Under the pieces are notes generated by a model. The model saw only the letters and a program-made list of their open reading frames with translations, made no database searches and was not told where the DNA came from. From contig NZ_AYYP01000060.1 in the NCBI RefSeq assembly GCF_001436215.1, positions 1,014-65,013 on the forward strand: a stretch of DNA of 64,000 nt. The letters run 5' to 3'. Shown here in pieces: positions 39,053 through 55,439 of this stretch; position 1 is the first letter of the stretch, and each line of letters opens with the position of its first letter. Made by a program: the position numbers and the translations under genes. The stretch is from Ligilactobacillus agilis DSM 20509 (GTDB lineage Bacteria > Bacillota > Bacilli > Lactobacillales > Lactobacillaceae).

Positions 39053-40618
39053 TTGAGTTCTATTATTGTAATCCCCGCCGTCGCTATTATAACGTTGTTA
39101 CTTGGTTTTGCTGGCGGAATTTGGTATCGAAAGCGGCACTATGAGGAAAAACTTGATCAAGCTACTCAAACCGCAGCTGGAATTTTAGCACAAGCACGTA
39201 AAGAGGCGGATGCTGAAAAGAAGGAAGTGATATTGGAGGCTAAAGAAGAAAGTCACCGGTATCGCAGTGAAGTAGAGAGTGAATTAAAAGAACGTCGTTC
39301 AGAGATTCAAAGACAAGAAAATCGTTTATTACAAAGAGAAGAATTATTGGATCGTAAGGATAATGGCCTTGAGAAACGTGAAAATGTAATTAGTAAACGA
39401 GAAAAGCAATTAGATGTTGAACAACAAAAAATAGTTGCCAAGCGCAATAAAGTAGATTTGTTAGTAGAGCAACAGCAAACTAAACTCGAAGAAGTGGCTG
39501 AACTGACCCAAGACCAGGCAAAGGAACTTATAATTAAGGATACACGTGAAAAGCTTAGTCATGACCTAGCAGTAATGGTTAAGGACAGTGAAGCAGAAGC
39601 ACAAGCTAAGGCTGATAGAATTGCTAAGGATTTAATTTCCCAGGCAATTCAACGTTCGGCCGCAGATATGGTTTCTGAAACGACGGTTTCTGTGGTTAAC
39701 TTACCTAATGAGGAAATGAAGGGCCGGATTATCGGGCGTGAAGGTCGAAATATTCGGACTTTAGAAACCTTAACGGGAATTGACCTAATCATTGATGATA
39801 CACCGGAAGCAGTTGTTTTAAGTGGGTTTGACCCTGTCAGACGTGAAATAGCTAAGATGACCTTGGAGAAATTAATTCAAGACGGACGTATTCATCCTGC
39901 CCGTATCGAAGAGATGGTAGAGAAATCCACTAAAGAAATGGATGCCAAGATTCGGGAGAAGGGTGAAACAGCTATTTTTGACTTAGGCTTGCATTCAATG
40001 CACCCTGATTTGATTAAGACTGTTGGGCGCTTGAATTATAGGACTAGTTATGGGCAAAATGTTTTAGACCACTCTGTTGAAGTGGCTAAGATTGCTGGTG
40101 TGTTAGCAGCCGAACTAGGCGAAGATGTTACAATGGCGAAAAGAGCGGGATTATTACACGATATTGGTAAAGCGGTGGATCATGAAGTTGATGGCTCACA
40201 CGTGGAAATTGGGGTTGAATTAACCAAGAAGTACCAGGAAAGTAAGACAGTAATTAATACGATTGCTTCGCATCACGGAGATGTTGAACCAGAGTCAGTA
40301 ATTGCTGTGCTAGTAGCAGCTGCAGATGCAATTTCAGCTGCACGTCCTGGTGCACGGAGTGAATCTTTGGAAAATTATATTCACCGTTTAGAAAAATTGG
40401 AAAATATTTCTAATGAATTTAACGGAGTCCAAAAGAGTTATGCTATTCAAGCAGGGCGTGAAGTCCGCGTAATTGTTAAACCTAATGAAATCAGTGATTT
40501 ACAGGCTACATTGTTAGCTCGGGAAATCAAGGAAAAGATTGAAAATGAGCTTGAATATCCAGGCCACATTAAAGTGACTGTTATTCGCGAAACAAGGGCG
40601 ATTGAATATGCGAAATAA
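39053..40618 (+). CDS. rny: Ribonuclease Y
   Basis: A 521-residue membrane-anchored endoribonuclease that starts mRNA decay. An N-terminal helix (residues 1-22) is followed by a long coiled coil (about 30-190), a KH domain with GREG near residue 228, and an HD domain with HDIGK near residue 362. GGAGGTG at 39040-39046 selects the TTG at 39053; the longer frame includes the ribosome binding site. The last gene of the recA neighbourhood, it has its own terminator. Confidence 0.96.
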
Positions 40619-40622
40619 AAAG

Positions 40623-40661
40623 AGCTGTAATTTTGCGCTTTGGCAAAATTACGGCTTTTTG
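40623..40661 (+). terminator. Terminator after rny
   Basis: The stem AGCTGTAATTTTGC/GCAAAATTACGGCT has a 6-base loop and a T tract. Confidence 0.92.
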
Positions 40662-40677
40662 ATTTATAGCTAAAGTT

Positions 40678-40691
40678 ATTTCCCGGGAAAT
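40678..40691. promoter_or_regulatory. 14-base palindrome ahead of the antiporter gene
   Basis: ATTTCCCGGGAAAT is a perfect palindrome in the rny-antiporter gap, about 80 bases before the start. The same 14-mer recurs inside dltA as part of an 18-base palindrome. A regulator site is possible but unproven. Confidence 0.35.
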
Positions 40692-40768
40692 AGGCTGAAA
40701 TATTTGCCCACTAACTCAAGCTAGTATAAAATGGACTTAATTTGAAACGAGAGAAAGGACTTTTAATT

Positions 40769-42631
40769 ATGGATTTTTCCTTGGTATTAGTGACCTTGGC
40801 GGCCTTTGCAACGCCAATGATTTTGTCACGATTTAAAATTGGCATTTTACCTACCTCGGTGGCAGAAATTATCGTCGGGATTATTTTAGGTAAAAGTGCA
40901 CTTGATATCGTCCATACGGGACCATTACTGTCATATGCCTCGACCTTTGGGGTATTATTATTGATGTTTCTTAGTGGGATGGAAATAGATTTTAGCTTAT
41001 TTAAGAAAAGTGCTGGTCCGCAAACACCACTGGCTAAGAAAAAGGCTAACCAAGAACCAACGGTTTCACCGCTAAAGGCAGCAGTGGGTGCATATATATT
41101 GGCTACGGTTACAGCCGTAATTTTGGCCTTGGTATTCCATGTTACCGGTTTATTTAGTGATATTGGGTTAGCTACAATCTTATTCATGACGGTTTCTTTA
41201 GGAATTGTTATTTCGTTATTGAAAGAAAATGAATTACTTAGTCGCCCCTTTGGCCAAGCAATCTTATTGTTTGCCGTTTTGGGAGAAGTCGTGCCTATGC
41301 TATTGCTAACCCTTTATTCGTCCTTGGTAGCGGGGGATGGCGCTAGTATTTGGTTGATTTCAATTCTCTTCATTGTGGCGGCCTTCTTATTTAGGAAATT
41401 TCGGTCATTCTTTACCTTTTTTGACACCATTAATAAATCGACCACCCAGTTAGACATTAGGTTGGCGATTTTTGTGATTATTATGTTAGTGTGGATGGCC
41501 GAAAAGGTGGGAGCTGAAAATATCCTCGGGGCCTTTGTGGCAGGAATTGTTTTTAAGTTGTTACAACCTGCTGAGGATACGGAACAAAGGTTAGATTCAA
41601 TCGGGTATGGTTTTTTAATTCCCTTCTTCTTTATTATGACGGGAGTGAAATTAGACATTCCGGCCCTACTAACCTCGCCAACTACCTTAGTACTGATTCC
41701 GCTCTTCTTTTTAGCTTATGTGTTGGCCAAACTACCAGCTTACCTAGCTTTAAGAAAATACTTTAGTTCTAAAAATGCACTGGCGGGCTCGTTTTTAGCT
41801 AGCACAACCATCACCTTGGTGTTAGCAACTTTAACCGTAGCTGAGGAATTGAAGGTAGTAACTGCGCAACAATCAGGCGCGTTCTTACTGGCTGGCTTAC
41901 TAACATGCATCATTAGTCCCTTACTATTCAACAAACTTTATCGTCCTGAGCCAACAGATAAGAAAAAGACCAAGGTGCACTTTATTGGGGCTAACTTAGT
42001 GACGATTTCTGCAGCCCAACAGTTAACCCAAAGTTGGTATGAGGTAGATTTATATACAGATAGTCAGAAGAATTATACTACTTACGATTCTGAGGCTAAT
42101 GTGCACTTATTGACTAGGATGGACAAAGCAACCGCGATTGCAAGTGGCGCTTTTGATACGGATATTTTAGTCTTAGGTCACGTTAATTTTGACATTAACT
42201 ACCAACTTGCTTTGGCGGCTAAGGAATATGGGGTAGAGCGAGTAATTGCACGCCTAGACAATCCAGATCCAGTAATTAACTCCCAGCAGGAAGCTGAATG
42301 TGAAAAACAAGGGATAGAATACTACAGTAGCTTTGATACCAGGGTTGGTATGATGAGATCAATGATAGAATCTCCATCCATTATGCAGATTTTGACTAGC
42401 GGGGATGCCCGTCTGTATGAATTAACGGTTAATAATGCTAAATTTGATGGATTAGAACTTTATAAGTTACCATTTATCGAAGAAATCACTATCAGTCGGA
42501 TTTTCCGCAATCATAAATCAATCGCGCCTCATGGTTCTACGCGCATTCAATTGGGAGATCACATTGTCTTTTCTGGTAGCCGGGAATTAGTGAGTCAGGT
42601 TAGAGCTACCTTAGAAAAACTAAACGAATAA
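40769..42631 (+). CDS. CPA2 family cation:proton antiporter (Kef-like) with RCK domains
   Basis: A 620-residue protein. About twelve membrane helices of the Na+/H+-exchanger fold (residues 1-385) include FLSGMEIDF near residue 72 and the ENILGAFVAGIV pair near residue 250. Cytoplasmic TrkA-N-like (from residue 400) and TrkA-C-like (from about 545) domains follow. The nucleotide-binding loop FIGANLVT lacks the usual GxGxxG, so NAD binding is doubtful. GAGAAAGGA places the start at 40769. It is probably a K+ or Na+ efflux system; the ion is not identified. Confidence 0.88.
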   Translation: MDFSLVLVTLAAFATPMILSRFKIGILPTSVAEIIVGIILGKSALDIVHTGPLLSYASTFGVLLLMFLSGMEIDFSLFKKSAGPQTPLAKKKANQEPTVSPLKAAVGAYILATVTAVILALVFHVTGLFSDIGLATILFMTVSLGIVISLLKENELLSRPFGQAILLFAVLGEVVPMLLLTLYSSLVAGDGASIWLISILFIVAAFLFRKFRSFFTFFDTINKSTTQLDIRLAIFVIIMLVWMAEKVGAENILGAFVAGIVFKLLQPAEDTEQRLDSIGYGFLIPFFFIMTGVKLDIPALLTSPTTLVLIPLFFLAYVLAKLPAYLALRKYFSSKNALAGSFLASTTITLVLATLTVAEELKVVTAQQSGAFLLAGLLTCIISPLLFNKLYRPEPTDKKKTKVHFIGANLVTISAAQQLTQSWYEVDLYTDSQKNYTTYDSEANVHLLTRMDKATAIASGAFDTDILVLGHVNFDINYQLALAAKEYGVERVIARLDNPDPVINSQQEAECEKQGIEYYSSFDTRVGMMRSMIESPSIMQILTSGDARLYELTVNNAKFDGLELYKLPFIEEITISRIFRNHKSIAPHGSTRIQLGDHIVFSGSRELVSQVRATLEKLNE

Positions 42632-42641
42632 GGTTTTGAGA

Positions 42642-42677
42642 AGTTCCCCGTAAACATTTTTTACGGGGAGCTTTTTT
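42642..42677 (+). terminator. Terminator after the antiporter gene
   Basis: The stem AGTTCCCCGTAA/TTACGGGGAGCT is followed by a T tract. Confidence 0.92.
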
Positions 42678-42799
42678 ATTAGTTACCGCAGAACGTAAAT
42701 ATTCGTTAAAAAGAGTTTAAAGTTTGTTTATTGTAATGCCTTTGTAATAGTTTTATCCTAAAAAGAGTAAATGAAGCTTTAATGCAAAGGAGCATTTTA

Positions 42800-42946
42800 A
42801 TGCAAGAATTAAAAAAACTATGGCATAATTCAGTCTTTAACTTTATTATGCGTACTATTTTTTATTTTGTTATTTTGTTAGGCTTAATTTATTTGTACAG
42901 TTACAGTGGAATTAATCAACCACACTTTATTTATAATGAATTTTAA
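42800..42946 (+). CDS. dltX: D-alanylation accessory protein DltX
   Basis: A 48-residue protein too short for most gene callers. It begins MQELKKLWHN, has one membrane helix at about residues 16-35 and ends HFIYNEF, which is the DltX pattern. CAAAGGAGC precedes the ATG, and dltA begins 14 bases after the stop. DltX is a conserved membrane microprotein of the dlt operon that helps transfer D-alanine to teichoic acids; its conserved C-terminus is thought to act with DltB and DltD. Confidence 0.9.
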   Translation: MQELKKLWHNSVFNFIMRTIFYFVILLGLIYLYSYSGINQPHFIYNEF

Positions 42947-42960
42947 AGAGGAGTCAGATT

Positions 42961-44472
42961 ATGAATTTAATTGAGCAAATAGATTTGTGGGCTCAAAATG
43001 AACCTACACGCTTAGCTTACGATTACTTAGGGCAAGAATATACTTACCAACAATTAAAACAAGCCTCTGATGCAGTGGCGCATAAGTTACTAACAATGAA
43101 CTTGAGCGCTGGTCCCATTATGGTTTATGGTGGGCAAGAATTTGCCACGTTAGCTACTTTCTTGGGATGTGTTAAGGCGGGCCATGCTTATATTCCGGTA
43201 GATTCACATTCACCTAAGGAACGACTAGAAATCATCAATCAAATTGCCCAACCTGTTGCTTGTGTGAAGGCGGAAGAAGTTGAATTGACAGTGGAGATTC
43301 CTGTAATTGAACCAACCGAACTAGCAGGAATCTTAGAGCAGATGGTAGCGCCGATTGCTAAGGACCATTACGTAAGTGGGGCAGAAAATTTCTACATTAT
43401 CTTCACTTCGGGGACGACTGGTTTACCTAAAGGGGTTCAAATAAGTCATGATAACTTGGCAAGTTTTGTGAAGTGGATGCAATTGGATTTTGGCTTGGAG
43501 TCAGGAGCAACTTTTCTTGCGCAGGCTCCATATTCCTTCGACTTATCGGTAATGAGTATCTATCCAAGCTTAAGCATGGGTGGTAAGTTAGCAGTCTTAC
43601 CTCGCCAAATAACCGATAATTTTAAGGAATTATTTGCGGCCTTGCCCAAATTATCATTGGACGCCTGGGTTTCAACTCCCTCCTTCATGGATATTTGCTT
43701 AATGCAACCAACCTTTGACCAAGAACATTTACCTGCACTGAAGACATTCCTATTTTGTGGAGAAGAGTTGACCCACAAGACAGCGGCAATGTTGAAGCAA
43801 CGCTTCCCTGCGGCTAAGATTTATAATACTTATGGTCCAACGGAAGCAACGGTGGCAATTAGTGCGGTTGAAATTTCCCGGGAAATTTTAGATAACTATG
43901 GGCGCCTACCTATCGGTTATGTTAAAAGAGAAAGCGAAATCGTGTTAGTGGATAACGATTTGCAGCCTGTTGAAGTTGGTCAACCAGGAGAAATCTTATT
44001 GCTTGGGCCAGGGATTTCTAAGGGGTATCTTAATAATCCAGAAAAGACAGCTCATGCCTTTGTTGAATACCAAGGAAAAGCAGCCTATCGGACGGGGGAT
44101 TTAGGACAGTTCGACGATCAAGGGCTTCTCTTTTATAAAGGGCGGTTAGACTTCCAGGTTAAAATGCATGGTTTTAGAATTGAGTTAGAAGAAGTTGACC
44201 ATCATTTAGACAAGGTATCTCTAATTAATCAAGCTACCACGGTGCCTAAATATGATAAAGACCATAAGGTAAATCAATTAATTGCCTACGTGGTTGCCGA
44301 AAAAAATGACTACCCAACTGAATTAGCCCTAACCCAAGCGATTAAAAAGGAATTAGCAGAGACAACTTTGAATTACATGATTCCGCAAAGGTTTAAGTAT
44401 GTAGATTCATTACCGTTAACCATGAATGGGAAGATTGACCGCAAATCATTGATGCAAGAGGTCAATAACTAA
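42961..44472 (+). CDS. dltA: D-alanine-D-alanyl carrier protein ligase DltA
   Basis: A 503-residue adenylate-forming enzyme that activates D-Ala with ATP and loads it on DltC. FTSGTTGLPKGV near residue 148 is the P-loop, YNTYGPTEATV near residue 288 is the A5 block, and the C-terminal NGKIDRKSL near residue 490 contains the catalytic Lys. GAGGAG precedes the ATG. The last base of its stop is the first of dltB. It contains an internal 18-base palindrome (43871-43888). Confidence 0.97.
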   Translation: MNLIEQIDLWAQNEPTRLAYDYLGQEYTYQQLKQASDAVAHKLLTMNLSAGPIMVYGGQEFATLATFLGCVKAGHAYIPVDSHSPKERLEIINQIAQPVACVKAEEVELTVEIPVIEPTELAGILEQMVAPIAKDHYVSGAENFYIIFTSGTTGLPKGVQISHDNLASFVKWMQLDFGLESGATFLAQAPYSFDLSVMSIYPSLSMGGKLAVLPRQITDNFKELFAALPKLSLDAWVSTPSFMDICLMQPTFDQEHLPALKTFLFCGEELTHKTAAMLKQRFPAAKIYNTYGPTEATVAISAVEISREILDNYGRLPIGYVKRESEIVLVDNDLQPVEVGQPGEILLLGPGISKGYLNNPEKTAHAFVEYQGKAAYRTGDLGQFDDQGLLFYKGRLDFQVKMHGFRIELEEVDHHLDKVSLINQATTVPKYDKDHKVNQLIAYVVAEKNDYPTELALTQAIKKELAETTLNYMIPQRFKYVDSLPLTMNGKIDRKSLMQEVNN

Positions 44473-45668
44473 TGCCAAACTTACAACCATATGCTAATCC
44501 AGTTTATTTTGTTTACTTACTCTTGGGGCTTGCTCCCATTGTAGTCGGTCTGCTGTTGGGCAAAAGGTGGCGCCTATATGAAACGGCAATTTCGCTAATA
44601 TTCTTATTTTTAATCTTTGATGCCGATAAATGGCAGCAGGGAGTGGCACTGATAATTTATGTACTCTTTGAAGTCGGATTAATTTTTGCCTACCTAAAGT
44701 ACCGCCGCAAACACAATCAGACGTGGGTCTTTGTTTTGACTGTTTGCTTGGCAATTCTCCCCTTGGTAATTGTTAAAGTAACGCCTGCGATAATGGCGGG
44801 GAGAAATTCGCTTTTGGGCTTTTTAGGAATCAGTTACCTAACCTTTAAGGTAGTTGGAATGATTATGGAAACTAGGGATGGAATAATTAAGGAATTAAAG
44901 TTATTAGAAGTGTTACACTTTATTTTGTTCTTCCCAACTATTTCTTCCGGTCCAATCGATCGTTACCGGCGCTTCATCAAAGATTATCGCCAAATTCCAA
45001 GCCAAAGTAAGTACCTGCAGTTGCTTGAAAAGGCAGTGTGGTATTTGTTTTTAGGCTTTCTCTATAAGTTTTTACTAGCCTACTATTTTGGGAGTGTGTT
45101 GGAACCTCGAGTAGCACACTTGGCTTTAATTCACGGGGGCTTTTCTAAATACCTAATCGCTTATACCTACGTATACTCAATGGATTTATTCTTTGATTTT
45201 GCGGGTTACAGCTTCTTTGCGGTTGCGACTAGCTACCTAATGGGGATTGAAACTCCGATGAACTTTAACCGGCCGTTTATTTCCAAAAATATCAAAGAAT
45301 TTTGGAATAGGTGGCACATGACCTTGTCATTTTGGTTTAGGGATTATATCTACATGCGCTTAGTCTTTTTCTTGATGAAAAAGAAGTTAGTTAAAAGCAA
45401 GATTGCGTTGACCAATTTAGGTTACCTAACCCTATTTTTAATAATGGGTTTTTGGCATGGGTTAACTTGGTATTATATCGTTTACGGGTTATTTCATGCT
45501 AGCGCCATTATCATCTGTGATATGTGGTTACGGTTTAAAAAGAAGCACCAAGCACATATTCCAAGTAATTGGCTAACTAAGTATATCGGAATATTTGTAA
45601 CCTTTAACGTTGTTTGTTTTAGTTTTTTGATTTTCTCAGGTTTTCTAGATAAACTATTTTTTAAATAA
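44472..45668 (+). CDS. dltB: D-alanyl transfer protein DltB (MBOAT)
   Basis: A 398-residue polytopic membrane O-acyltransferase with about eleven helices. FWNRWHMTLSFWFRDYIY near residue 278 and the invariant His in FWHGLTWYYI near residue 327 are the MBOAT features. It moves D-Ala from DltC across the membrane toward lipoteichoic acid. It overlaps dltA by one base. Confidence 0.97.
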   Translation: MPNLQPYANPVYFVYLLLGLAPIVVGLLLGKRWRLYETAISLIFLFLIFDADKWQQGVALIIYVLFEVGLIFAYLKYRRKHNQTWVFVLTVCLAILPLVIVKVTPAIMAGRNSLLGFLGISYLTFKVVGMIMETRDGIIKELKLLEVLHFILFFPTISSGPIDRYRRFIKDYRQIPSQSKYLQLLEKAVWYLFLGFLYKFLLAYYFGSVLEPRVAHLALIHGGFSKYLIAYTYVYSMDLFFDFAGYSFFAVATSYLMGIETPMNFNRPFISKNIKEFWNRWHMTLSFWFRDYIYMRLVFFLMKKKLVKSKIALTNLGYLTLFLIMGFWHGLTWYYIVYGLFHASAIIICDMWLRFKKKHQAHIPSNWLTKYIGIFVTFNVVCFSFLIFSGFLDKLFFK

Positions 45669-45698
45669 TTAATTTTTGAACAAAGGAAGTAATTTAAG

Positions 45699-45929
45699 AT
45701 GAAAGATACAGTTTTAGATATTTTGGTAGATTTAACAGGTAGCGAAGAAGTAAAACAAGATTTAGACATTAATTTGTTTGACAACGGCTTGTTGGATTCA
45801 ATGGGGACAGTTCAAATGTTACTCGAATTGGATAATCAATGTGGTATTCAAGTGCCAGTTTCTGAATTTGAACGTAGTGAATGGGACACTCCTAACAAAA
45901 TTATTGCGAAAGTAGAAGCTATGAAATAA
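45699..45929 (+). CDS. dltC: D-alanyl carrier protein DltC
   Basis: A 76-residue acyl-carrier-like protein. LLDSMGTVQ near residue 33 carries the Ser that receives 4'-phosphopantetheine. It carries activated D-Ala between DltA and DltB. AAAGGAAGT precedes the ATG, and its stop overlaps the dltD start. Confidence 0.97.
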
Positions 45930-47179
45930 TGAGTTTGAAAAAGAGACTATGGCTAATCTTAGGACCAGCAGTAATTGCTATCGTAGCGTTATTGCTTTTC
46001 TTGGTAACTCCCTATAAGTTAAAAGTGAATCAAGAAGTCTTGCCTGGAGCAGCAATTTCTCAAAGTGCTAATATTTTCAAGGGGAACGCAATTAAACAGG
46101 CGGCTTTGTCTGAGAATTACGTTGCCTTTATGGGCTCATCTGAATTGTCACGGATGGATCCCTTCCATCCCGCAGTTCTAGCGGCTAAATATAAGCGCCC
46201 TTACCGGCCATTCTTGTTAGGAGCGGCAGGTTCTCAGTCCCTATCTCATTTTTTTGCAATGCAAGGAATTAACTCAGAAATTAGCCATAAAAAAGTTGTC
46301 TTTATCATTTCCCCCCAATGGTTTACAAAACAGGGAATTGATAAGAATGCCTTTTCTTATTACTATTCAAACTTGCAAGCAGTTACCTGGTTGAAAACAG
46401 CTAAGCCAACTGTGATGAATAGGCACGCAGCTAAACGCTTATTGATGATGCCATCTGTTCACTCGGATGAAAGAATCGCACATGCCGTGGATACAATTGC
46501 TCAAGGGCAAGCTTTGAGTAAAGGTCAGCTGACATATGTTAAGCTAAAGTATAATGAGTTAAGTAGGGAAGACGAATTGTTCTCCAGTTTGCATATGAAT
46601 TTGCGGACCCAAAAACTAGCCAAGGCTGCTAAACAATTACCGGCTGAGTATTCTGTTGAACACTTAGATAAACTGGCGATGGAAATTGGTGAAAAGAAGA
46701 CAGGCAACAATCCTTTCCGCATCAGTGATAGATTTTGGAATAAGCGGCTCAAGGATAATTATCGGCAGCTAAAGGGTAGACAAGCTAAGTTTAACTACTT
46801 AGCCTCCCCTGAGTATAGTGATTTTGAATTAGTTTTAAATCAGTTTGCCTTAGATAAAACGGACGTATTGTTTGTCATTCCCCCTGTCAATAGACAATGG
46901 TCTCAGTATACGGGCTTATCTTTAAAGATGTTAGCCCAATTTGATAATAAAATTAAGTACCAACTTCAAAGTCAAGGTTTTAACAATATTGTTGACTTAT
47001 CTAAAGATGGGGGCGAAAAATACTTTATGCAAGATACGATTCACTTGGGGTGGCGTGGTTGGTTGAAATTAGATCAAGCTGTTAAGCCCTTCTTGACTAA
47101 AAAGCAACCTGCACCAAGTTATCGGATTAATGATTATTTCTATAGCCAAAAATGGCAAAACCTGCAAGGGGATTATTAA
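45929..47179 (+). CDS. dltD: D-alanyl-lipoteichoic acid biosynthesis protein DltD
   Basis: A 416-residue membrane-anchored protein with one N-terminal helix (residues 7-27) and an extracellular SGNH-like domain. MGSSELSR near residue 70 has the catalytic Ser, and the C-terminal DTIHLGWRGW near residue 369 has the Asp-His pair. It completes D-alanylation of teichoic acids outside the cell. It is the last dlt gene before a terminator. Confidence 0.96.
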   Translation: MSLKKRLWLILGPAVIAIVALLLFLVTPYKLKVNQEVLPGAAISQSANIFKGNAIKQAALSENYVAFMGSSELSRMDPFHPAVLAAKYKRPYRPFLLGAAGSQSLSHFFAMQGINSEISHKKVVFIISPQWFTKQGIDKNAFSYYYSNLQAVTWLKTAKPTVMNRHAAKRLLMMPSVHSDERIAHAVDTIAQGQALSKGQLTYVKLKYNELSREDELFSSLHMNLRTQKLAKAAKQLPAEYSVEHLDKLAMEIGEKKTGNNPFRISDRFWNKRLKDNYRQLKGRQAKFNYLASPEYSDFELVLNQFALDKTDVLFVIPPVNRQWSQYTGLSLKMLAQFDNKIKYQLQSQGFNNIVDLSKDGGEKYFMQDTIHLGWRGWLKLDQAVKPFLTKKQPAPSYRINDYFYSQKWQNLQGDY

Positions 47180-47186
47180 ATTAATG

Positions 47187-47219
47187 AAGCTAGCCAAGGT
47201 TTCTTGGTTGGCTTTTTTA
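47187..47219 (+). terminator. Terminator after dltD
   Basis: The stem AAGCTAGCCAA/TTGGTTGGCTT has a 5-base loop and a T tract. Confidence 0.85.
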
Positions 47220-47309
47220 GCAATTAAATTGAGAAAGGAAAGACTATGTTGTTACGAGTTAGGACATAATTTATTCAGTAGCTTGTATTTGATGTAGTAG
47301 GGTGTAGCT

Positions 47310-48587
47310 ATGGTAACAAAATTGGTAGCTTGGATGGCGCAAAAAAAGGAACAACCAACAATAAAAGCTGTCCGTCGTACGTTAGTAATGATTTTTCCAT
47401 TCGTTCTTTTGGGAAGTTTTATGCAAATTTTAGCGCAGAGTGTGTTTTCCCAAACAGGTTTTTTGAATAGTATTTTTCAGTTGAGTGATAAGGTGCCGGC
47501 GTTTGAGAAAATTTATTATTTTTTTACGAATTTAAGTTTTTTTACGCTAGGAATTAGTGCCTTGTTAGCGGCCTACCAAGTTGCTAATTATCAGGCCAAA
47601 TACCTGCATAAGGATGGAGCAATGGCAGGGTTGACCGGCCTGGTTTGCTTTTTGATTTTGGTAATAAGGCCCCTTGATGGAACTGGGCGCTTGAATTTTA
47701 ACTGGGCACTCTTGGGGACGCCGGGATTATTATTGGGCTTACTAGTAGGTTGTTTAGTTGGCAACTTATTTAACTTATTAGGTAAAAAAACTGCTAGACA
47801 AGTTGAGCGGACTGATGACGTCTTGGCTCGTGCATTTGCAGCCTTACCAGTAATTACGCTGGCCTTATTATTATGCCTATTATTTAATTTGGCGGTGGCC
47901 TTTTTTAGCGGCCAAGATGCAGTTACCAATTTTTTTGCAGGTATGGAAGCGTTTGCTGATAATCAAGACCGGGTGGGGACGGTAGTTGGGTTAGGAATCA
48001 TTAGTAACCTTTTAAACTGGTTAGGTTTAAGTGGGCCCTATAATACCATCGGGACTGTTTATGGTGATCAGAAGTATTTGGATAATTTAAACTATGCTTT
48101 AAGTCATGGTTCAGCAGTCAATGTTCCCTATAAATACACGGTGACAACCTTATATCAGTCCTTTGGAATGTTTGGAGGAGTTGGGGCCACCTTAGCACTC
48201 CTAATTGCAATTAGTCTTGTTAGCAATAGTCACCGGGCTTTGCGGGTAAGTCGCTGGTCATTTTTGCCAGTCTTCTTTAACGTTAATAGCCCGTTAATGA
48301 TTGGCCTGCCCCTGCTATTTAATCCCCTGTACCTGCTTCCTTTTGTGCTAGCTCCTTGTTTTAACATGCTGATTGCTAGTTTAGCCATCAAATGGCAGCT
48401 GATTACAGTTTTAACCTACCCTGTTCCTGTGGGGACTCCTGGGGTGCTGGTGGCTTATATTGGGACTAATGCCAGCATCAGTAGTCTAGTTTTAGGAATA
48501 GTACTTTTGGGGATAGATGTGTTACTTTACATCCCGTTTGTAAAAGTAGCAGATGCCGTTAGTTGTAAATTGACTGGGGGGATTTAA
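47310..48587 (+). CDS. EIIC-like membrane protein with altered substrate motifs
   Basis: A 425-residue polytopic protein related to the lactose/cellobiose PTS EIIC family. The start KEQPTIKAVRRTLVMIFPFVLLGS and GGVGATLALL near residue 289 match that fold. Two family motifs are changed: FNxNEP reads FNVNSP near residue 329 and PHIVT reads PYKYT near residue 270. In the structurally known EIIC, the Glu and His of these motifs contact the sugar. No EIIA or EIIB gene is near. AGGGTG precedes the ATG. It lies after dltD and is followed within two bases by a DUF915 hydrolase, so an envelope role is possible. Confidence 0.8.
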   Translation: MVTKLVAWMAQKKEQPTIKAVRRTLVMIFPFVLLGSFMQILAQSVFSQTGFLNSIFQLSDKVPAFEKIYYFFTNLSFFTLGISALLAAYQVANYQAKYLHKDGAMAGLTGLVCFLILVIRPLDGTGRLNFNWALLGTPGLLLGLLVGCLVGNLFNLLGKKTARQVERTDDVLARAFAALPVITLALLLCLLFNLAVAFFSGQDAVTNFFAGMEAFADNQDRVGTVVGLGIISNLLNWLGLSGPYNTIGTVYGDQKYLDNLNYALSHGSAVNVPYKYTVTTLYQSFGMFGGVGATLALLIAISLVSNSHRALRVSRWSFLPVFFNVNSPLMIGLPLLFNPLYLLPFVLAPCFNMLIASLAIKWQLITVLTYPVPVGTPGVLVAYIGTNASISSLVLGIVLLGIDVLLYIPFVKVADAVSCKLTGGI

Positions 48588-48588
48588 C

Positions 48589-49467
48589 GTGCGGAGACGT
48601 AAGAATATTGCCAGTTTACTATTTTCACTTTTATTAATTCTAGCCTTAGCCTGGCCTGCCTATTTTTGGACTAAGGATAATGTCGCTAATTTGACCAAGT
48701 GGCATAATTCAAAATTGTCGCCGATTATCATGATTCCAGGCAGTTCGGCTACTGAAAATCGCTTTGATAGTTTAGTTTCACTGATAAATAAGCAAAGTTT
48801 TAAGAAGCACAGTCTACTTAAGGTCAAGGTTTGGAATAGCGGTAAAATTACCTATCAAGGTAAGATTAACCCTAAAGATAACGAGCCGTTCATTGTGGTC
48901 GGCTTTGAAAATAACCATGATGGCTATGACAACATTTTAAAACAAGCTAAGATGTTTAATAAGGCGTTTACGGCTTTGACTAACAGGTATGATTTCAATA
49001 ATTTTAAGGGAATCGGTCATTCTAATGGTGGCTTAGTTTACACGGCCTTTTTAGAAAAGTATTTTAATGAAGATGATGCTCAAATAAAAAAGTTGATGAC
49101 GATTGGGTCACCGTTTAACTTCGCTGAAAAATCAACGGCCAACAAAACACAAATGTTAGCTAGTTTTATCAAAAATAAAGTGAATCTACCTAGTAATTTA
49201 ATTGTTTATTCAGTCGCCGGAACTCAGAATTATGAATCTGATGGCTTGGTTCCACTAGATAGTGTGGAGGCTGGTAAATATGTTTACCAAAACCAAGTCA
49301 AGTCTTTTACGGAGATAACTGTAACTGGAGTGGATGCGCAACATTCTAGTTTGCCACAAAATAAGCAGATTGTTAGCTTGATTACAGAGTATATCTTGGA
49401 TAAACACACTTTAGATGGAAAAGGAAAACTTAACCCTGGCCCTAATCAAAGCGACAACCGTAATTAG
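48589..49467 (+). CDS. DUF915 family alpha/beta hydrolase, membrane-anchored or secreted
   Basis: A 292-residue protein with an N-terminal basic stretch and hydrophobic helix (residues 9-28) that acts as signal or anchor. The hydrolase domain has GHSNGG near residue 143 (nucleophile Ser) and a late His in AQHSSLP near residue 261. It is the DUF915 type, common in lactobacilli and without a settled substrate. A GTG start follows a run of six G and lies one base after the EIIC-like gene, so they are surely cotranscribed. Confidence 0.88.
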   Translation: MRRRKNIASLLFSLLLILALAWPAYFWTKDNVANLTKWHNSKLSPIIMIPGSSATENRFDSLVSLINKQSFKKHSLLKVKVWNSGKITYQGKINPKDNEPFIVVGFENNHDGYDNILKQAKMFNKAFTALTNRYDFNNFKGIGHSNGGLVYTAFLEKYFNEDDAQIKKLMTIGSPFNFAEKSTANKTQMLASFIKNKVNLPSNLIVYSVAGTQNYESDGLVPLDSVEAGKYVYQNQVKSFTEITVTGVDAQHSSLPQNKQIVSLITEYILDKHTLDGKGKLNPGPNQSDNRN

Positions 49468-49757
49468 CGAATGATTAGTTGGTTATTTTGGAGATGGTAA
49501 CCGTAAAAATGCAGCTTGGGCTTAGTCGCGGTTCTTAAAAGTATAGGTAGAGATTGGGAGATTTGGACTAAGTCATTATGAACCGACAGTAGTGTTAAGG
49601 CAGGAAGCTGGAGGGTGGCATCTGCTATAAGTAAGACGCTATCAGAGTTAACAATAATTTCTGCCAACGGAATCAGTTGCTTGGTCGGAGCTTGCCAAAA
49701 CAATTCCCGTGAGTAATCGATGCCTTTAGTGGCAGTTAAAAAATCTTTGACTAACAA
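49464..49757 (-). CDS. Unrecognised 97-residue protein
   Basis: I do not recognise this protein. It starts MLVKDFLTATKG, has mixed hydrophobic and polar composition without an obvious membrane helix, and ends NNQLIIR. The TTG at 49757 is 9 bases after AAAGGAG, while the TTG at 49763 is too close. A TATAAT lies upstream on the minus strand. It is divergent from the OatA-like gene and its stop overlaps the 3' end of the DUF915 gene by 4 bases. The ribosome binding site and promoter make a real gene more likely than not. Confidence 0.6.
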   Translation of the reverse strand: MLVKDFLTATKGIDYSRELFWQAPTKQLIPLAEIIVNSDSVLLIADATLQLPALTLLSVHNDLVQISQSLPILLRTATKPKLHFYGYHLQNNQLIIR

Positions 49758-49804
49758 ATGCAACAGCTCCTTTCCTTTGGAAATAATTATAGAATAAAAG
49801 TGGC

Positions 49805-49853
49805 CCTAACTCTAGTTAGGCTATTGAACCAAGTTGAAGTTTATGAGTATAAT
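49805..49853. promoter_or_regulatory. Palindrome and promoter ahead of the OatA-like gene
   Basis: CCTAACT-CT-AGTTAGG (49805-49820) is a perfect palindrome. TTGAAC (49824-49829), an 18-base spacer and TATAAT (49848-49853) follow it on the plus strand. The palindrome is also just upstream of the likely minus-strand promoter of the divergent 97-residue gene, so one regulator could control both. Confidence 0.55.
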
Positions 49854-49910
49854 GAATGGGAGTCATTCCTGATAAGAGGGGGGAAGGTGTTTTACACAAA
49901 CACGTAAAGT

Positions 49911-51779
49911 ATGAATAGAAGGTTAAAGCACAGCCGTTACATCACAGGTTTCGATGGAATTAGAACTTTAGCGGTAATCGGAGTCATTTGTTATCATATC
50001 TTGCCAGCTACGATGCCAGGTGGCTTCTTAGGGGTGCCTATCTTTTTTGTAGTGTCAGGTTACCTAATAACTGACCTACTTTTACAAGAGTGGGATGAAT
50101 ACGGCAAAATTGATGTTAAGGCGTTTTATCTCCGCAGAATAAGGCGCTTATATCCTGCTTTAGTAACGATGGTGCTAACGACTGCGGCTTACATCACGGT
50201 TTTTCAACGAAATTTATTGACTAACCTTAAGGGGATAGTGATTAGTAACTTTCTTTATGTTTATAATTGGTTTCAAATTGCTCACCACGAGTCATACTTT
50301 GACAAGTTTGGGGGCGAATCACCATTTACGCACCTGTGGTCCTTATCGATTGAAGGTCAGTTTTACTTTTTGTGGCCGCTATTAATTATTCTAGCCTTAA
50401 CCTTTATTAAAAAGAGGGTTAAGATTTTTGATATCCTATTTGTTTTAGCTGGGGTATCTGCCTTGGCTATGGCGTTTATCTACCATGATGGAATTGACCC
50501 ATCACGGCTTTACTACGGAACCGATACCCGGACTTTTTCTATTTTATTAGGGGCTAGTTTAGCCTTTATCTGGCCAAGCACCGCCTTAAAACGGCAGCTT
50601 GATCGCCGCTTAAGTTTGATGGTTGACGTGGTAGGCTTGATTAGTTTAGCAATTATTTTAACTTGTTTTTTCAAGATGGATTCACAAAGCGCTACGATTT
50701 ATAGGGGCGGAATGTTTTTATTTTCTTTAGTTGCGATGATTTTTATTGCAACCGTAGCTCATCCAGGGGCGGATATGAACCGCTTGTTTACTAATAAGGT
50801 CTTTACTTGGTTGGGAAAACGTTCTTACGGAATTTACCTCTACCAATATCCGGTAATGATTTTTTACGAAAGTAAGATTGCAGTCGGTAACCATCCCCTT
50901 ATCCATGCGCTGATTGAAATTTTGTTGATTGTAGTGATTAGTGCTTTATCTTATCGCTATATAGAAAGGCCGCTACAGCGTTATAATTACCGGCGCTTGG
51001 GGGTTGATTTAAAAGGTTTGCTTCGCAAACAGTCTCAAGAAAAATGGCTGTTGGTAGTGCCAGTTATCGTAATCGTGACGGCAGTGGTGGGAATGTTTTT
51101 ACCGGCTAGAGATCCTGGCTCTGAGCAGAGTAAACAACTCCAAGAAACCATTGCTAAAAACACTAAGCAGGCAGCCCAAAAAAATAAGCAGATAGGAACT
51201 ACTAAAAAAGCTACTAAAGACTCTAAAAATATTAATGAGGCTGCTACTTCTCAGTCTCCTAAGGACTTCCAGCTGACCACGGGCTTAACCAAGCAACAGT
51301 TGGCTAAAGCGCAAACGTTACAAATTACTGCGGTTGGTGATTCTGTTTTGGCCGATACTTCGGCTAAGCTAACGGAAATCTTCCCCCAAATGTATGTGGA
51401 TGGTAAGGTGGGGCGGCAAGTCTACGATACAATTCCTGTTTTGAAATCATTAGCCGCTAATGGTAAGTTAGCCAACGTAGTCCTATTAGTGGAAGGGACA
51501 AATGGTTCTTTTAACGATAACCAGTTAGCAGAGATTATGGCTATTTTAGGTGACCGGCAGGTTTACTGGGTTAACGTCTACGTTCCAACTAAGAGTTGGC
51601 AAAATACGGTAAACAATGCTTTGACTAAGGCTACTAAAAAATACCATAACTTAACAATCATAGATTGGTATAATTACAGTCGTAATCACTCTGAATGGTT
51701 CTATAATGATCAGGTTCACCCTAATGTTAAGGGGCAGCCATATTACGCTAACTATGTGGCGCGAAAGATTTTAAAGTAA
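49911..51779 (+). CDS. oatA: OatA-like peptidoglycan O-acetyltransferase
   Basis: A 622-residue two-domain protein. Acyltransferase-3 membrane domain with about eleven helices (residues 1-395), including GFDGIRTLAVIGVICYH and THLWSLSIEGQFYFLWP. A Lys/Thr-rich linker (about 400-445) leads to an extracellular SGNH domain with GDSVLADTS near residue 475 and DQVHPN near residue 601. Homologues O-acetylate MurNAc and give lysozyme resistance. The exact glycan target (peptidoglycan or other) is inferred from family. Confidence 0.9.
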   Translation: MNRRLKHSRYITGFDGIRTLAVIGVICYHILPATMPGGFLGVPIFFVVSGYLITDLLLQEWDEYGKIDVKAFYLRRIRRLYPALVTMVLTTAAYITVFQRNLLTNLKGIVISNFLYVYNWFQIAHHESYFDKFGGESPFTHLWSLSIEGQFYFLWPLLIILALTFIKKRVKIFDILFVLAGVSALAMAFIYHDGIDPSRLYYGTDTRTFSILLGASLAFIWPSTALKRQLDRRLSLMVDVVGLISLAIILTCFFKMDSQSATIYRGGMFLFSLVAMIFIATVAHPGADMNRLFTNKVFTWLGKRSYGIYLYQYPVMIFYESKIAVGNHPLIHALIEILLIVVISALSYRYIERPLQRYNYRRLGVDLKGLLRKQSQEKWLLVVPVIVIVTAVVGMFLPARDPGSEQSKQLQETIAKNTKQAAQKNKQIGTTKKATKDSKNINEAATSQSPKDFQLTTGLTKQQLAKAQTLQITAVGDSVLADTSAKLTEIFPQMYVDGKVGRQVYDTIPVLKSLAANGKLANVVLLVEGTNGSFNDNQLAEIMAILGDRQVYWVNVYVPTKSWQNTVNNALTKATKKYHNLTIIDWYNYSRNHSEWFYNDQVHPNVKGQPYYANYVARKILK

Positions 51780-51782
51780 TAA

Positions 51783-51839
51783 ATTAATAACGACCGCTTG
51801 AAAGCATATCGCTAGATGTGTTTTCAGGCGGTCGTTATT
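51783..51839. terminator. Bidirectional terminator between the OatA-like and lipid kinase genes
   Basis: The stem AATAACGACCGC/GCGGTCGTTATT with a second inner pairing region lies between convergent genes. Confidence 0.92.
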
Positions 51840-51843
51840 TACA

Positions 51844-52779
51844 TTAGTATAAGAAAGCTTGCTGGTTGATGGAAAAGCTAATTTCAAATGGCTTAGTCCC
51901 CATCTCTTCCCCATCGGCTTGACCGTGCTCGGCTGAAGAGACGGCTAACTTAAGCTTGGGAGCCTGGAGGTGGTGGACTCGGCGTGAAAAGATGTGAAAA
52001 TGGCCGGGTAAAATCATTAATAAAAATAATCTTAAAAAAGGCCAAGTTCGCTTTTTTTCGATAACAACCAAGTCTAATTTACCGTCATTTATTTTGGCCG
52101 TGGGCATTAAATTAACCCCGCCACCAAAATAAGGATGGTTAGTGGTGGTACATAAAAAGGCTTGTTCAAAAACTTGGTGACCTTTAGGGCTGGTTACCTC
52201 TAATTTGAAGGTGGGCTGCTTTTTTAAGGCCTTAAAAAAGAGGGCGGCATAGGAAAGAAAGCCGAGGTGGTATTTGTTTAACCATTTCTTAAGGGGAGAA
52301 TGGTTGGTCAAGTATACAATTTGGGCGTCAAAGCCAATGCCAATGTTATTGGTAAAAAAGGCTGATTCATTGCGGAATTTTTCTGTGTAATGGCCGATAT
52401 CGACCAGGCGCGGAGCTTTAGCCGCCAAGATTCTATCCAAAGCTTTAACTGGGTCGGCTGGAATGGAAAGTCCCCTAGCAAAGTCGTTACCAGAGCCACA
52501 GGGAATATAGGCTAAGGTTGCACTAACCTTGGTTTCTTTATGTAATCCGTTGACAGCTTCATGTAAAGTTCCGTCTCCACCTAAAAGAACAATTACAGCT
52601 TGGGGATGGTTAAGGGCGTATTGGCGACAAAGTTTTTCGGTGTGGCCGGGATAACGACTTTCATCAAAGCTGTAAGAAATATTACGTGTCTGTAAAATCT
52701 GTCTAAGTTTTGGCCAAACTATTTTAGCATGTTCACTTCCCGCAACAGGGTTAATGATAAAGTGATAGTGCGGCGACAT
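51844..52779 (-). CDS. Diacylglycerol/lipid kinase (YegS/DagK family)
   Basis: A 311-residue soluble lipid kinase. LGGDGTLHEAVNGL near residue 63 is the nucleotide-binding motif, PCGSGNDFARGL near residue 92 is the second block, and DGxEMGTKP near residue 288 closes the fold. DagK-type members recycle diacylglycerol released in lipoteichoic acid synthesis, which fits the surrounding envelope genes, but sphingosine- or other lipid-kinase activity cannot be excluded. It is monocistronic. Confidence 0.93.
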   Translation of the reverse strand: MSPHYHFIINPVAGSEHAKIVWPKLRQILQTRNISYSFDESRYPGHTEKLCRQYALNHPQAVIVLLGGDGTLHEAVNGLHKETKVSATLAYIPCGSGNDFARGLSIPADPVKALDRILAAKAPRLVDIGHYTEKFRNESAFFTNNIGIGFDAQIVYLTNHSPLKKWLNKYHLGFLSYAALFFKALKKQPTFKLEVTSPKGHQVFEQAFLCTTTNHPYFGGGVNLMPTAKINDGKLDLVVIEKKRTWPFLRLFLLMILPGHFHIFSRRVHHLQAPKLKLAVSSAEHGQADGEEMGTKPFEISFSINQQAFLY

Positions 52780-52920
52780 GTCATCACTTCTTTCTAAATA
52801 CTCAAGTTAATTTCAATTAAAATACCTATTATTAAAAAATACCATAAAAATTAGGAAAAAATAAAGTCTAAAGTTTAGCTATTTTTGTTTAAATTAATTG
52901 AAGGATTGTCGAAAAAAGGA

Positions 52921-52949
52921 TTTACTTTATTAAGGATAAGAGTTAAAAT
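52921..52949 (+). promoter_or_regulatory. Promoter of the secreted coiled-coil gene
   Basis: TTTACT (52921-52926), a 17-base spacer and TAAAAT (52944-52949). It lies about 70 bases before the start codon. The rest of the 238-base gap from the lipid kinase gene shows nothing else I can name. Confidence 0.55.
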
Positions 52950-53017
52950 GATTCTTGACGATTCTAATCGCTAATGTGAAATAGATACAAATTAAGAAAA
53001 GGACATCGTACATAATT

Positions 53018-53458
53018 ATGAAAATAACAAAGACTATTATCTGTTGTTTTTTAGGATTTGGATTAATAACATTCGGTACTCTAGGCAAGAAGGCTGTAGC
53101 TGCTGACTTTTTGCAAACAACTACAACCAATAATAATAGTGAAAATGTGGCTATTTTACAAAAACGTTTACAAGCTAAAGTGAAAGAATTAACTAATAAG
53201 ACTGAAGCTTTAAAGGCGATGACAGCTAAGGCAACTAATGAAGTAGATGCTAAGTCAAAGGCTGATGCTAAGTCAAAGCTTGCTGAATTACAAGCTGAAG
53301 TAACTGATTTGAACCAAGAAGTAACAAGCTATCAAGATCAAATCAGTCAGTTGAATAAGAAAGAGCAACTTAGCTTAAAGGCCACTAGTGAACAATTGGG
53401 GTTAGTTTCACAAAAAGCAGCTATAGCGCTTGACCAAAGCAAGGTGGCTGTAAACTAA
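53018..53458 (+). CDS. Small secreted coiled-coil protein
   Basis: A 146-residue protein with a signal peptide at about residues 1-28 (TIICCFLGFGLITFGT, then AVAAD as the likely cleavage site). The mature part is Lys-, Ala- and Gln-rich with heptad-like patterning (residues 45-125), which predicts a coiled coil. An in-frame 18-base repeat (53246-53278) duplicates DAKSKA. The nearest ribosome binding site, AAAAGGAC, is about 14 bases from the ATG, an unusually long spacing. I do not recognise a family. It has its own promoter and a very strong terminator. Confidence 0.75.
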   Translation: MKITKTIICCFLGFGLITFGTLGKKAVAADFLQTTTTNNNSENVAILQKRLQAKVKELTNKTEALKAMTAKATNEVDAKSKADAKSKLAELQAEVTDLNQEVTSYQDQISQLNKKEQLSLKATSEQLGLVSQKAAIALDQSKVAVN

Positions 53459-53485
53459 TTAAAGCTTACTAGCACGATTATTGTT

Positions 53486-53535
53486 AAGTCGTAGTTATAA
53501 AGAAGGACAACTTTCTTTATAACTACGACTTTTTA
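53486..53535 (+). terminator. Very strong terminator after the secreted protein gene
   Basis: The 19-base stem AAGTCGTAGTTATAAAGAA with its complement is followed by a T tract. Confidence 0.95.
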
Positions 53536-53660
53536 CTTGGAAAAGTAAAAAGCCCTTTATCTTAATTGAGAAAAAATGTTAGAATAAAATTGATATAGTT
53601 TGCGCTCTTGAGCGTATAAAGAATTATTTACTTTGCGTAAATTAGAATAGGAATTAGACA

Positions 53661-54599
53661 ATGGAACTTGAATTTTTAGGAACAGGGGCAGGATCGCCTG
53701 CTAAATTTCGTAATGTTACAGGCATTGCGCTAAAATTATTAGAAGAACGGAACTCAATTTGGTTATTTGACTGTGGTGAAGGAACCCAGCACCAAATCTT
53801 ACGGACTAACATCCGGCCTCGGAAGATTGATAAGATTTTCATAACCCACTTACATGGAGATCATGTTTTTGGGTTGCCAGGCTTTTTGAGTAGTCGGTCT
53901 TTTCAAGGTGGAGACCAAATGGGGCCATTGACAATCTATGGTCCGCGTGGCATTAAGGAATTTGTTAATTGTGCTTTGAAAATCTCACAATCTAAATTAT
54001 CTTATAAAATCAACTTTGTTGAACTTGACAAAGAAGGGGTATTATACGAAGACGATAGGTTTGTCGTTTCCTTTAAGTACCTGGAACATCGGATTACTAG
54101 CGTGGGTTACCGGATTGTAGAAAAGGATTACCCGGGTGAATTACTGGTTGCTAAGTTACAAGCAGCAAATATTCCGGCTGGCCCACTTTACGGTCAGTTG
54201 AAGGCTGGCCAGGTTGTCACCCTTGATGATGGACGAATCGTGGATGGGAAAGATTACCTTGGTCCTGATAAAAAAGGCCGCATTGTGACCATTTTAGGTG
54301 ATACCAGACAAACGGCAAGTATCAGTGAGTTAGCCCAGGATGCAGACGTATTAGTACATGAGAGTACTTTTGGCAAGGGTGAAGGAAAGTTAGCCCGCAG
54401 TTATTATCATTCAACCTCTTTGCAGGCAGCCAAGGTGGCCAAAAATGCAGGGGTAAAACAGTTGCTATTAACCCATATTTCTGCCCGGTATGTTGGCCCA
54501 CTTGTTAAGCAATTAGAACAAGAAGCAAAGAGCGTCTTTGCTAACAGTAGAGTTGTCAAGGATTTCGATGTGATTGAGGTACCGTTTCCCAAAAGTTAA
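53661..54599 (+). CDS. rnz: Ribonuclease Z
   Basis: A 312-residue metallo-beta-lactamase-fold tRNA 3' endonuclease that trims tRNA precursors lacking an encoded CCA. Several tRNAs in this window lack encoded CCA. HLHGDH near residue 63 is the zinc motif, GDT near residue 213 and HIS near residue 270 supply the other ligands. AGGAATTAGACA precedes the ATG. It heads an rnz-SDR-recJ-apt series. Confidence 0.96.
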
Positions 54600-54616
54600 G
54601 TAAAGAAGGTGGAATT

Positions 54617-55426
54617 ATGGCTGGATATAAAGAGTTAAAAAATCTCCGCAATAGGGTAGTAGTAATTACTGGGGCTTCCGGGGGCTTAGGTGAACAGTTA
54701 GCCTATCAAGCAGCTAGCAAGGGCGCAATTGTGGTGGCCTGTGCCCGGAGACTAGATAAGTTGCAAGAGGTGGTAGCTAATTGTCGGCAGATTTCGGGGA
54801 GATTGGCATTTGCATATACCTTAGATGTTTCAGACCCAAATCAAATTGAGAGAGTTTTAGCAGAGGTTGAGACCAATGTTGGTCCGATTGATGTTTTGAT
54901 TAACAATGCTGGCTTTGGTTTAATGGAAAACTTACTGCAAATTGATGAACAGACGATTGAATCAATGTTTCGGATTAATGTTTTAGGTTTAATTTATTTG
55001 AGTAAATATACTGCGCTTAGGATGGCTAAGAGACACCGGGGGGCGATTATTAACATCGCATCCATGGCTGGCAAGATAGCAACTCCTAAATCAACTATTT
55101 ATTCAGCTACTAAATTTGCCGTCTTAGGTTTTTCCAATGCGCTTCGCCTGGAGTTAAAACCACTGGGAATTATGGTAACGACAGTTAACCCGGGGCCAAT
55201 TGCAACGGCATTTTTTGAGAAAGCCGATAAAACCGGTAACTATCTTAAGAGTATAGATAAAATTGTATTGCAACCGGAAATGGTGGCTAAGAAGGTTATT
55301 AGGACAATCGGTACCAATAAGCGTGAAGTGAATCTACCGTATAGTATGGAAATAGCTAGTCACCTATATAATGCCTTTCCTACTTTAGGTGACTATTTAG
55401 CTGGTGGAATTTTTAATAAGAAATAG
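54617..55426 (+). CDS. SDR family NAD(P)-dependent oxidoreductase (YqjQ-like)
   Basis: A 269-residue short-chain dehydrogenase. GASGGLGEQLA near residue 20, NNAGFG near residue 94 and YSATKFAV near residue 160 are the cofactor and catalytic motifs. Residue pattern and location beside rnz match Bacillus YqjQ. The substrate is unknown. GAAGGTGG precedes the ATG, 17 bases after rnz. Confidence 0.9.
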   Translation: MAGYKELKNLRNRVVVITGASGGLGEQLAYQAASKGAIVVACARRLDKLQEVVANCRQISGRLAFAYTLDVSDPNQIERVLAEVETNVGPIDVLINNAGFGLMENLLQIDEQTIESMFRINVLGLIYLSKYTALRMAKRHRGAIINIASMAGKIATPKSTIYSATKFAVLGFSNALRLELKPLGIMVTTVNPGPIATAFFEKADKTGNYLKSIDKIVLQPEMVAKKVIRTIGTNKREVNLPYSMEIASHLYNAFPTLGDYLAGGIFNKK

Positions 55427-55439
55427 GTTGGGTGATAGG

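Follow-up and report, generated by a model that had tools for sequence, protein, structure and literature searches.

The question raised by this locus is whether a gene that resembles a sugar permease still encodes one. It lies in a 64,000-nucleotide stretch of Ligilactobacillus agilis DSM 20509 (contig NZ_AYYP01000060.1, positions 1,014 to 65,013 of the forward strand; the whole stretch is called the window below), where a membrane protein similar to the EIIC component of the phosphotransferase system (PTS) is encoded directly upstream of a hydrolase of the DUF915 family. By its top profile matches the gene would be expected to be named as a cellobiose or lactose PTS permease. An earlier reading of the DNA letters, here called the original prediction, had described an EIIC-like protein with lost sugar motifs coupled to the hydrolase. 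Both open reading frames (ORFs) were confirmed where it had placed them, and the tight spacing also held, the gap being 1 base where "within two bases" had been given. The two genes proved to form a single conserved unit in Lactobacillaceae and in some streptococci, and their coupling is stronger than is visible from the window alone.

The assignment to the EIIC fold was borne out by profiles, a sequence match and a predicted structure. The window protein scored 78.7 bits against the Pfam profile PTS_EIIC (PF02378, cut-off 30.7), its only sequence match in the PDB was ChbC of B. cereus (3qnq, E 1.8e-23), and an AlphaFold model with a mean predicted local distance difference test score (pLDDT) of 87.5 had 3qnq as its top Foldseek match (E 1e-12, TM-score 0.43). 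A VIA structure alignment gave Z 22.8 with 310 residues aligned and a root-mean-square deviation of 12.5; rows of that alignment other than PTS transporters had low Z values and were set aside. The protein is thus like the lactose/cellobiose/chitobiose family in fold, in sequence and in its many Gly and Pro residues. Against the NCBIfam profile of the lacE subfamily, TIGR00410, it reached 151.3 bits, which is under the curated cut-off of 236.

The sugar site was compared through the alignment to 3qnq. His250, Glu334 and Trp382 of ChbC, the last of which we take to stack on the sugar, correspond in the window protein to Ser241, Ser327 and Val374, so that all three are lost, including the His250 and Glu334 expected of a functional lactose/cellobiose/chitobiose PTS permease. 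The original prediction had read a change of an NEP motif to NSP as loss of the substrate Glu, and this was the right position. It had also taken PYKYT as a changed PHIVT motif marking the catalytic His, and this was rejected: PYKYT (residues 273-277) aligns with PNTIT of ChbC, while the real His250, in GIHG, falls on Ser241 in GLSG. The loss of both residues therefore stood although one of the two positions did not. NVPYKYT is the majority motif in a 40-sequence EIIC alignment. According to the part of PMC11393339 available, only two of the contacts compared are conserved between the glucose and the chitobiose transporter, E334 and H250 of the latter, so the paired lineage has lost the two contacts common to both EIIC types.

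This loss is a trait of the family and hence not a chance event. Among 72 DUF915-linked EIICs (45 and 27 from two alignments), His250 was lost in 72, Trp382 in 71 and Glu334 in 70, and none kept two of the three residues; Asn331 was kept in 40 of the 45. The 27 other EIICs, which comprise 26 without DUF915 in the fetched flank and 3qnq, kept Glu and Trp in all cases and His in 26. Fourteen loci without DUF915 were used in the second residue count, the remainder being pair loci, partial or not chosen. With the three residues lost across the linked family and nearly always kept elsewhere, the claim that the protein does not serve PTS sugar uptake is well supported.

Recurrence of the pair was examined in several sets of genomes. 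Of 397 genomes from the same family, 219 had an EIIC match at E 1e-30 or better; at least four of these (G186, G309, G350 and G358) owed it to a residue-intact EIIC rather than to the pair. In 40 regions chosen from the listed family matches, from 37 genomes, DUF915 lay directly downstream on the same strand in every case; the gap between the ORFs as called was -182 to +16 bases in 37 regions, and DUF915 was truncated or split in three (L073, L075, L083). One locus with a truncated EIIC, L066, was left out of alignment A1. When 398 genomes of the class were searched with a 40-row EIIC profile, the matches listed fell into three groups: family members scored 405 bits or more, three EIICs reached about 354 bits, and the rest lay at 220.5 bits or less. 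The first group included 10 genomes of family f3, probably streptococci. DUF915 adjoined the EIIC in all 10, with one ORF of the pair split at two of these loci and DUF915 shortened at one; five of the 10 loci entered the 45 EIICs of the residue count.

A scan of named genomes found no relatives with the EIIC sequence alone and 394 with the DUF915 alignment, of which the best 80 were kept and inspected. An EIIC-like gene stood directly upstream in 80/80 (78 flagged by script, two by inspection), split or cut by a contig end in four. These 80 belonged to Ligilactobacillus, Lactiplantibacillus, Lapidilactobacillus, Limosilactobacillus, Lactobacillus, Companilactobacillus, Lentilactobacillus, Latilactobacillus, Weissella, Streptococcus, candidate Levilactobacillus and one Mogibacterium timidum, the top-scoring locus being L169 of L. 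ubinensis. Twenty-four genomes were chosen because their DUF915 came with a weak EIIC match or none, and 22 of them have a diverged EIIC-like ORF directly upstream, at 74-390 bits. The search sets overlap, 120 loci yielding 97 distinct DUF915 proteins, and the 127 pairs used below reduce to 106 distinct sequences for EIIC and 104 for the DUF915 core. Among plasmids, the DUF915 protein matched one record, a large plasmid of Limosilactobacillus fermentum with no gene annotated at that place.

Several unusual forms of the pair were seen. Streptococcus gordonii DD07 (L186, 2707-5662) carries two tandem DUF915 genes after the EIIC-like gene, and at L048 (8258-11213) the EIIC-like gene is flanked on both sides, by a distant DUF915-like gene (23% identity) directly upstream and by another DUF915 downstream. 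In the clostridial genome of Mogibacterium timidum (L215, 18-4825) the pair stands beside an MBOAT gene and a DHHW/AlgX-like protein, which are probably an O-acylation pair. Elsewhere in the L. agilis genome (C36:31295-32082; L012, L013) a DUF915 homologue was matched as two adjacent pieces that belong to different ORFs, and the gene may be frameshifted.

Partners for phosphoryl transfer were sought with six Pfam-verified EIIA and EIIB queries, supplied by three of 18 PTS controls, in 152 stretches (151 pair loci and the window, repeats included). As the original prediction had stated, none was found near the window pair, in 40001-56000 of the window. A match was seen at one of the 152 stretches, an EIIA about 6 kilobases (kb) off at L077, versus 18/18 of the controls; this near absence of homologues paired with EIIA or EIIB agrees with a non-PTS role and is not decisive alone. 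An ordinary lactose/cellobiose-type PTS permease might use EIIA and EIIB encoded elsewhere, and the genome does hold other EIICs and a lac-type EIIA (C69:35531). Moreover, only 5 of 14 other residue-intact lactobacilli EIICs have EIIA or EIIB within 1.5 kb, and because nine have none, the absence of partners is weak evidence by itself. Yet the lac-type EIIA adjoins its own EIIC, L003, 151 of the 152 pair loci are without EIIA/EIIB, and the protein lacks the Glu and the His that the glucose and chitobiose IIC structures have in common, which together make an ordinary permease a very improbable reading. The paired EIICs differ from ChbC-type proteins in being without the sugar-site residues, without EIIA/EIIB partners and with a DUF915 neighbour.

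The same division appeared in a quick tree of 89 EIICs, from which 10 near-duplicates had been removed: one change separates 64 DUF915-linked EIICs from 25 others, with a branch support (SH-aLRT) of 99. Among the matches listed in the class search, the top-scoring EIICs outside the paired family were the three at about 354 bits, L097-L099, which belong to EIIA-EIIB-EIIC systems of other Bacilli. Unlike the paired EIICs they keep His, Glu and Trp, have EIIA and EIIB adjacent and group with the PTS EIICs in the tree. Since their scores to the family profile are far above those of the other PTS EIICs in that search, they may show the origin of the paired family. Two of the three have a GH1 gene nearby and one a ROK gene. 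Four residue-intact EIICs of one genus, L142-L145 (G350, G186, G309, G358), score 331-340 bits to the family profile and have neither DUF915 nor EIIA/EIIB within 1.5 kb.

The downstream protein was found to be, as proposed, a DUF915 hydrolase with an N-terminal anchor. It scored 196.9 bits against PF06028 (cut-off 22) and 277 bits against 3lp5 of L. plantarum, and a hydrophobic segment (residues 7-25) follows the sequence VRRRKN. The solved DUF915 structures, 3lp5, 3ds8 (Listeria) and 3fle (Staphylococcus), are of the same family and carry the same triad as the window protein; compared by eye, 3lp5 is closely like the DUF915 of the paired locus L065. The Ser145/Asp218/His252 triad is invariant in 127/127 pairs (104 distinct) and is presumably catalytic. 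In the part of PMC3017865 available, DUF915 surface hydrolases of lactic acid bacteria are listed with unknown function, and the corresponding part of PMC11878206 gives the function as still unknown in 2024, with three structures solved. That same text reports the Listeria and staphylococcal DUF915 genes in other gene contexts than the EIIC pair, the staphylococcal ones near EIIC, IIA and 6-phospho-beta-galactosidase; this looks like a lactose operon, unlike the setting of the pair. Two L. plantarum DUF915 proteins changed in a cadmium study (PMC5430759, as excerpted).

The two partners were mostly inherited as sets. In genomes with two pairs, the nearest relatives of EIIC and of DUF915 came from the same locus in six of eight copies, though the copies within one genome are only 35-37% alike in EIIC and 48-58% in DUF915. 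In the case of L071, which is among the six, the nearest entry (L234) is that locus itself again, and the next nearest, L212, agrees too; the exceptions were L154 and L047, and both nearest sets of L047 come from one group of loci. Across the 127 pairs mean identity was 0.55 for DUF915 and 0.34 for EIIC, DUF915 being the more conserved in every comparison with an EIIC identity below 0.9. The two identity matrices correlate at 0.84, a value that shared ancestry alone can give. Within EIIC, 34 columns are conserved in at least 90% of the 127 sequences, 29 of them within residues 239-410, the segment assigned to the transport domain by reference to the ChbC fold; on the 106 distinct sequences the figures were 27 of 30. 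None of these columns is charged, in either count, and this, with their clustering in the transport domain, favours a ligand that is neutral, or a lipid.

Our working proposal, built on sequence comparison and held at a little under even confidence, is that a non-phosphorylating EIIC-type translocator serves the surface DUF915 hydrolase in a module independent of the PTS. The EIIC-like protein would no longer phosphorylate anything, would keep its transport-domain architecture and would act as a dedicated elevator-type translocator for DUF915, moving a neutral small or amphipathic molecule across the membrane or between its leaflets. In doing so it would either present an ester substrate to DUF915 or remove the product that DUF915 releases, and the hydrolase step would stay constant across lineages as the translocator diverges fast. 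The transport or flipping role in the original prediction is compatible with these comparisons. A narrower version, in which a phosphorylation-dead elevator flips a lipid- or glycan-linked ester out, or the product in, for a dedicated serine hydrolase, is a more doubtful guess.

Much of the same evidence could be read in another way, with the EIIC-like protein as a pseudo-transporter, that is, a scaffold, chaperone or ligand sensor which places or regulates DUF915 and transports nothing. Loss of the ChbC sugar-site residues, divergence faster than that of the hydrolase, the want of any conserved charged residue and paired inheritance in two-copy genomes would all suit such a protein, and PTS_EIIC domains do occur, rarely, in cyclic di-GMP signalling proteins (PMC8846402, in the part available). 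However, the most conserved columns (29/34, or 27/30 distinct) lie in the presumed moving C-terminal half and not in the scaffold half, which argues against a scaffold that keeps only the static half of the fold. We regard the pseudo-transporter as possible and rather unlikely.

Several observations weigh against the translocator proposal. The TM-score to 3qnq is low over the whole chain, which may perhaps reflect a different conformational state in the model, and the conserved Gly and Pro residues can be explained by fold stability alone. The EIIC tree is a quick one with several long branches flagged, and the residue-intact lactobacilli EIICs without nearby EIIA/EIIB mentioned above count here as well. 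Two genomes of genus g19 (L136, L137) hold a paired-type DUF915 without a detectable EIIC, a broken or diverged EIIC having been looked for upstream in both and not found. Glu334 is nominally present in the linked EIICs L122 and L139, as is Trp382 in L126. Conversely, L167, an EIIC with EIIA and EIIB nearby, also has Ser at His250, so that a missing His is not diagnostic by itself. The residue at position 334 varies among linked EIICs (Q/S/A/Y/G/T and others), and with the old sugar-site positions varied no single specific small ligand is evident. Finally, the annotated neighbours of the pair are mostly unrelated and give no hint of a substrate.

No description of the EIIC-DUF915 pair was found in the open-access literature searched, and the available parts of PMC3511166, PMC7278804 and PMC12900739 contain nothing on it. 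The unit is well supported as a widespread and apparently undescribed two-gene module, its EIIC repurposed. Many genes of lactobacilli and streptococci could be named as cellobiose or lactose PTS permeases, a role against which the present evidence speaks. The unit joins two families that are widespread and whose roles are unknown or mis-stated, gives DUF915 a constant partner and an experimental handle, and hints at a so far unexplored function at the cell surface. It would be a clear case of an EIIC having left the phosphotransferase system, making the role of the fold without phosphoryl transfer testable. If the translocator proposal is true, the lactobacilli and streptococci possess a hydrolase-coupled non-PTS translocation system, and a DUF915 protein would have its first function, as far as the literature searched shows.

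The original prediction had further tied the pair to envelope modification through dlt on one side and an OatA-like gene downstream. Both neighbours were found by profile (dltX, dltA, dltB and dltD; dltC by position only); the pairing itself recurs, but its setting beside dlt or oatA, though real, is mostly local, and a specific link is weak. True dlt genes lay within 4.5 kb at 10 of the 97 distinct loci, or in 4 of 37 arrangements, one of them in Ligilactobacillus, one in genus g37 and two in Weissella, which does not place the pair in the dlt operon generally. An eleventh locus flagged by the script was L215, whose 'dltB' was rejected as the MBOAT beside the DHHW/AlgX protein. About 0.3 of 37 arrangements would be expected (0.75-1% each, a rough figure set by hand), giving a binomial tail of 0.0002-0.0005 for 4/37 and of 0.003-0.006 for 3/37, the latter relevant if the two cases in Weissella go back to a single event. 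By this post hoc test the dlt neighbourhood exceeds chance, yet 33/37 arrangements have no dlt nearby.

These counts bear on a third explanation, in which the pair edits teichoic acid esters together with dlt, DUF915 being a D-alanyl or acyl esterase and EIIC supplying or clearing its substrate. Besides the excess of dlt neighbours, of which two in four are from Weissella, it has a precedent in DltE (PbpX2) of L. plantarum, a surface serine hydrolase tied to dlt and the D-Ala-lipoteichoic acid esterase of the dlt operon (PMC10241514, in the part available). DltE, however, has a penicillin-binding-protein fold and not that of an alpha/beta hydrolase, and the available text mentions no EIIC partner (PMC10241514). 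A strong hairpin follows dltD in the window (-19.5 kcal/mol, z -5.2, 0/200 shuffles as stable), and the pair is thus probably off the dlt transcript; the hairpin was missed by the promoter/terminator pattern scan, in which no convincing promoter was seen before the EIIC gene either. Hairpins with a U run, resembling terminators, stand after dltD in the window, L197 and L238, where co-transcription with dlt would require none; in L169 none is obvious. The dlt genes are also far more widespread than the EIIC-DUF915 pair. Taken with the arrangements that have no true dlt nearby, this makes a teichoic acid role improbable.

The features discussed are collected in Table 1.

Table 1. Positions in the window of the two-gene unit, its key residues and its neighbours. 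Codon coordinates of Ser241, Ser327 and Val374 were calculated by hand.
Feature	Position	Strand	Basis
EIIC-like membrane protein, 425 aa, without sugar-phosphorylating residues	47310..48587	+	ORF list, PTS_EIIC profile, 3qnq match
DUF915 alpha/beta hydrolase, 292 aa, GTG start, membrane-anchored, presumably extracellular	48589..49467	+	PF06028, 3lp5
Ser241, aligned with ChbC His250 (GIHG to GLSG)	48030..48032	+	Alignment to 3qnq
Ser327, aligned with ChbC Glu334 (FNINE to FNVNS)	48288..48290	+	Alignment to 3qnq
Val374, aligned with ChbC Trp382	48429..48431	+	Alignment to 3qnq
PYKYT, residues 273-277 of the EIIC-like protein	48126..48140	+	Alignment
Ser145 of GHSNGG, DUF915, presumed nucleophile	49021..49023	+	Invariant; role inferred from fold
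Asp218, DUF915, presumed triad acid	49240..49242	+	Invariant; role inferred
His252, DUF915, presumed triad base	49342..49344	+	Invariant; role inferred
Intrinsic-terminator-like hairpin with U run after dltD	47186..47218	+	Folding energy versus shuffles
dltXABCD, neighbour outside the two-gene module	42782..47179	+	Profiles; dltC by position only
OatA-like acyltransferase, neighbour	49911..51779	+	Acyl_transf_3 profile
Diacylglycerol kinase gene (dagK)	51844-52779	-	Pfam profile

Around the pair, Pfam annotation gave recD2, ribonucleotide reductase, Clp ATPase, melibiase, amino acid permease, P-type ATPase and glyQS. The sizes of genes nearby had suggested a glycolipid role or one in lipoteichoic acid glycosylation, an idea given up in the light of this annotation. 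An OatA-like match near the pair was seen in this window only (1/97 distinct loci), and a dagK match lay within 4.5 kb of the pair at 6/97.

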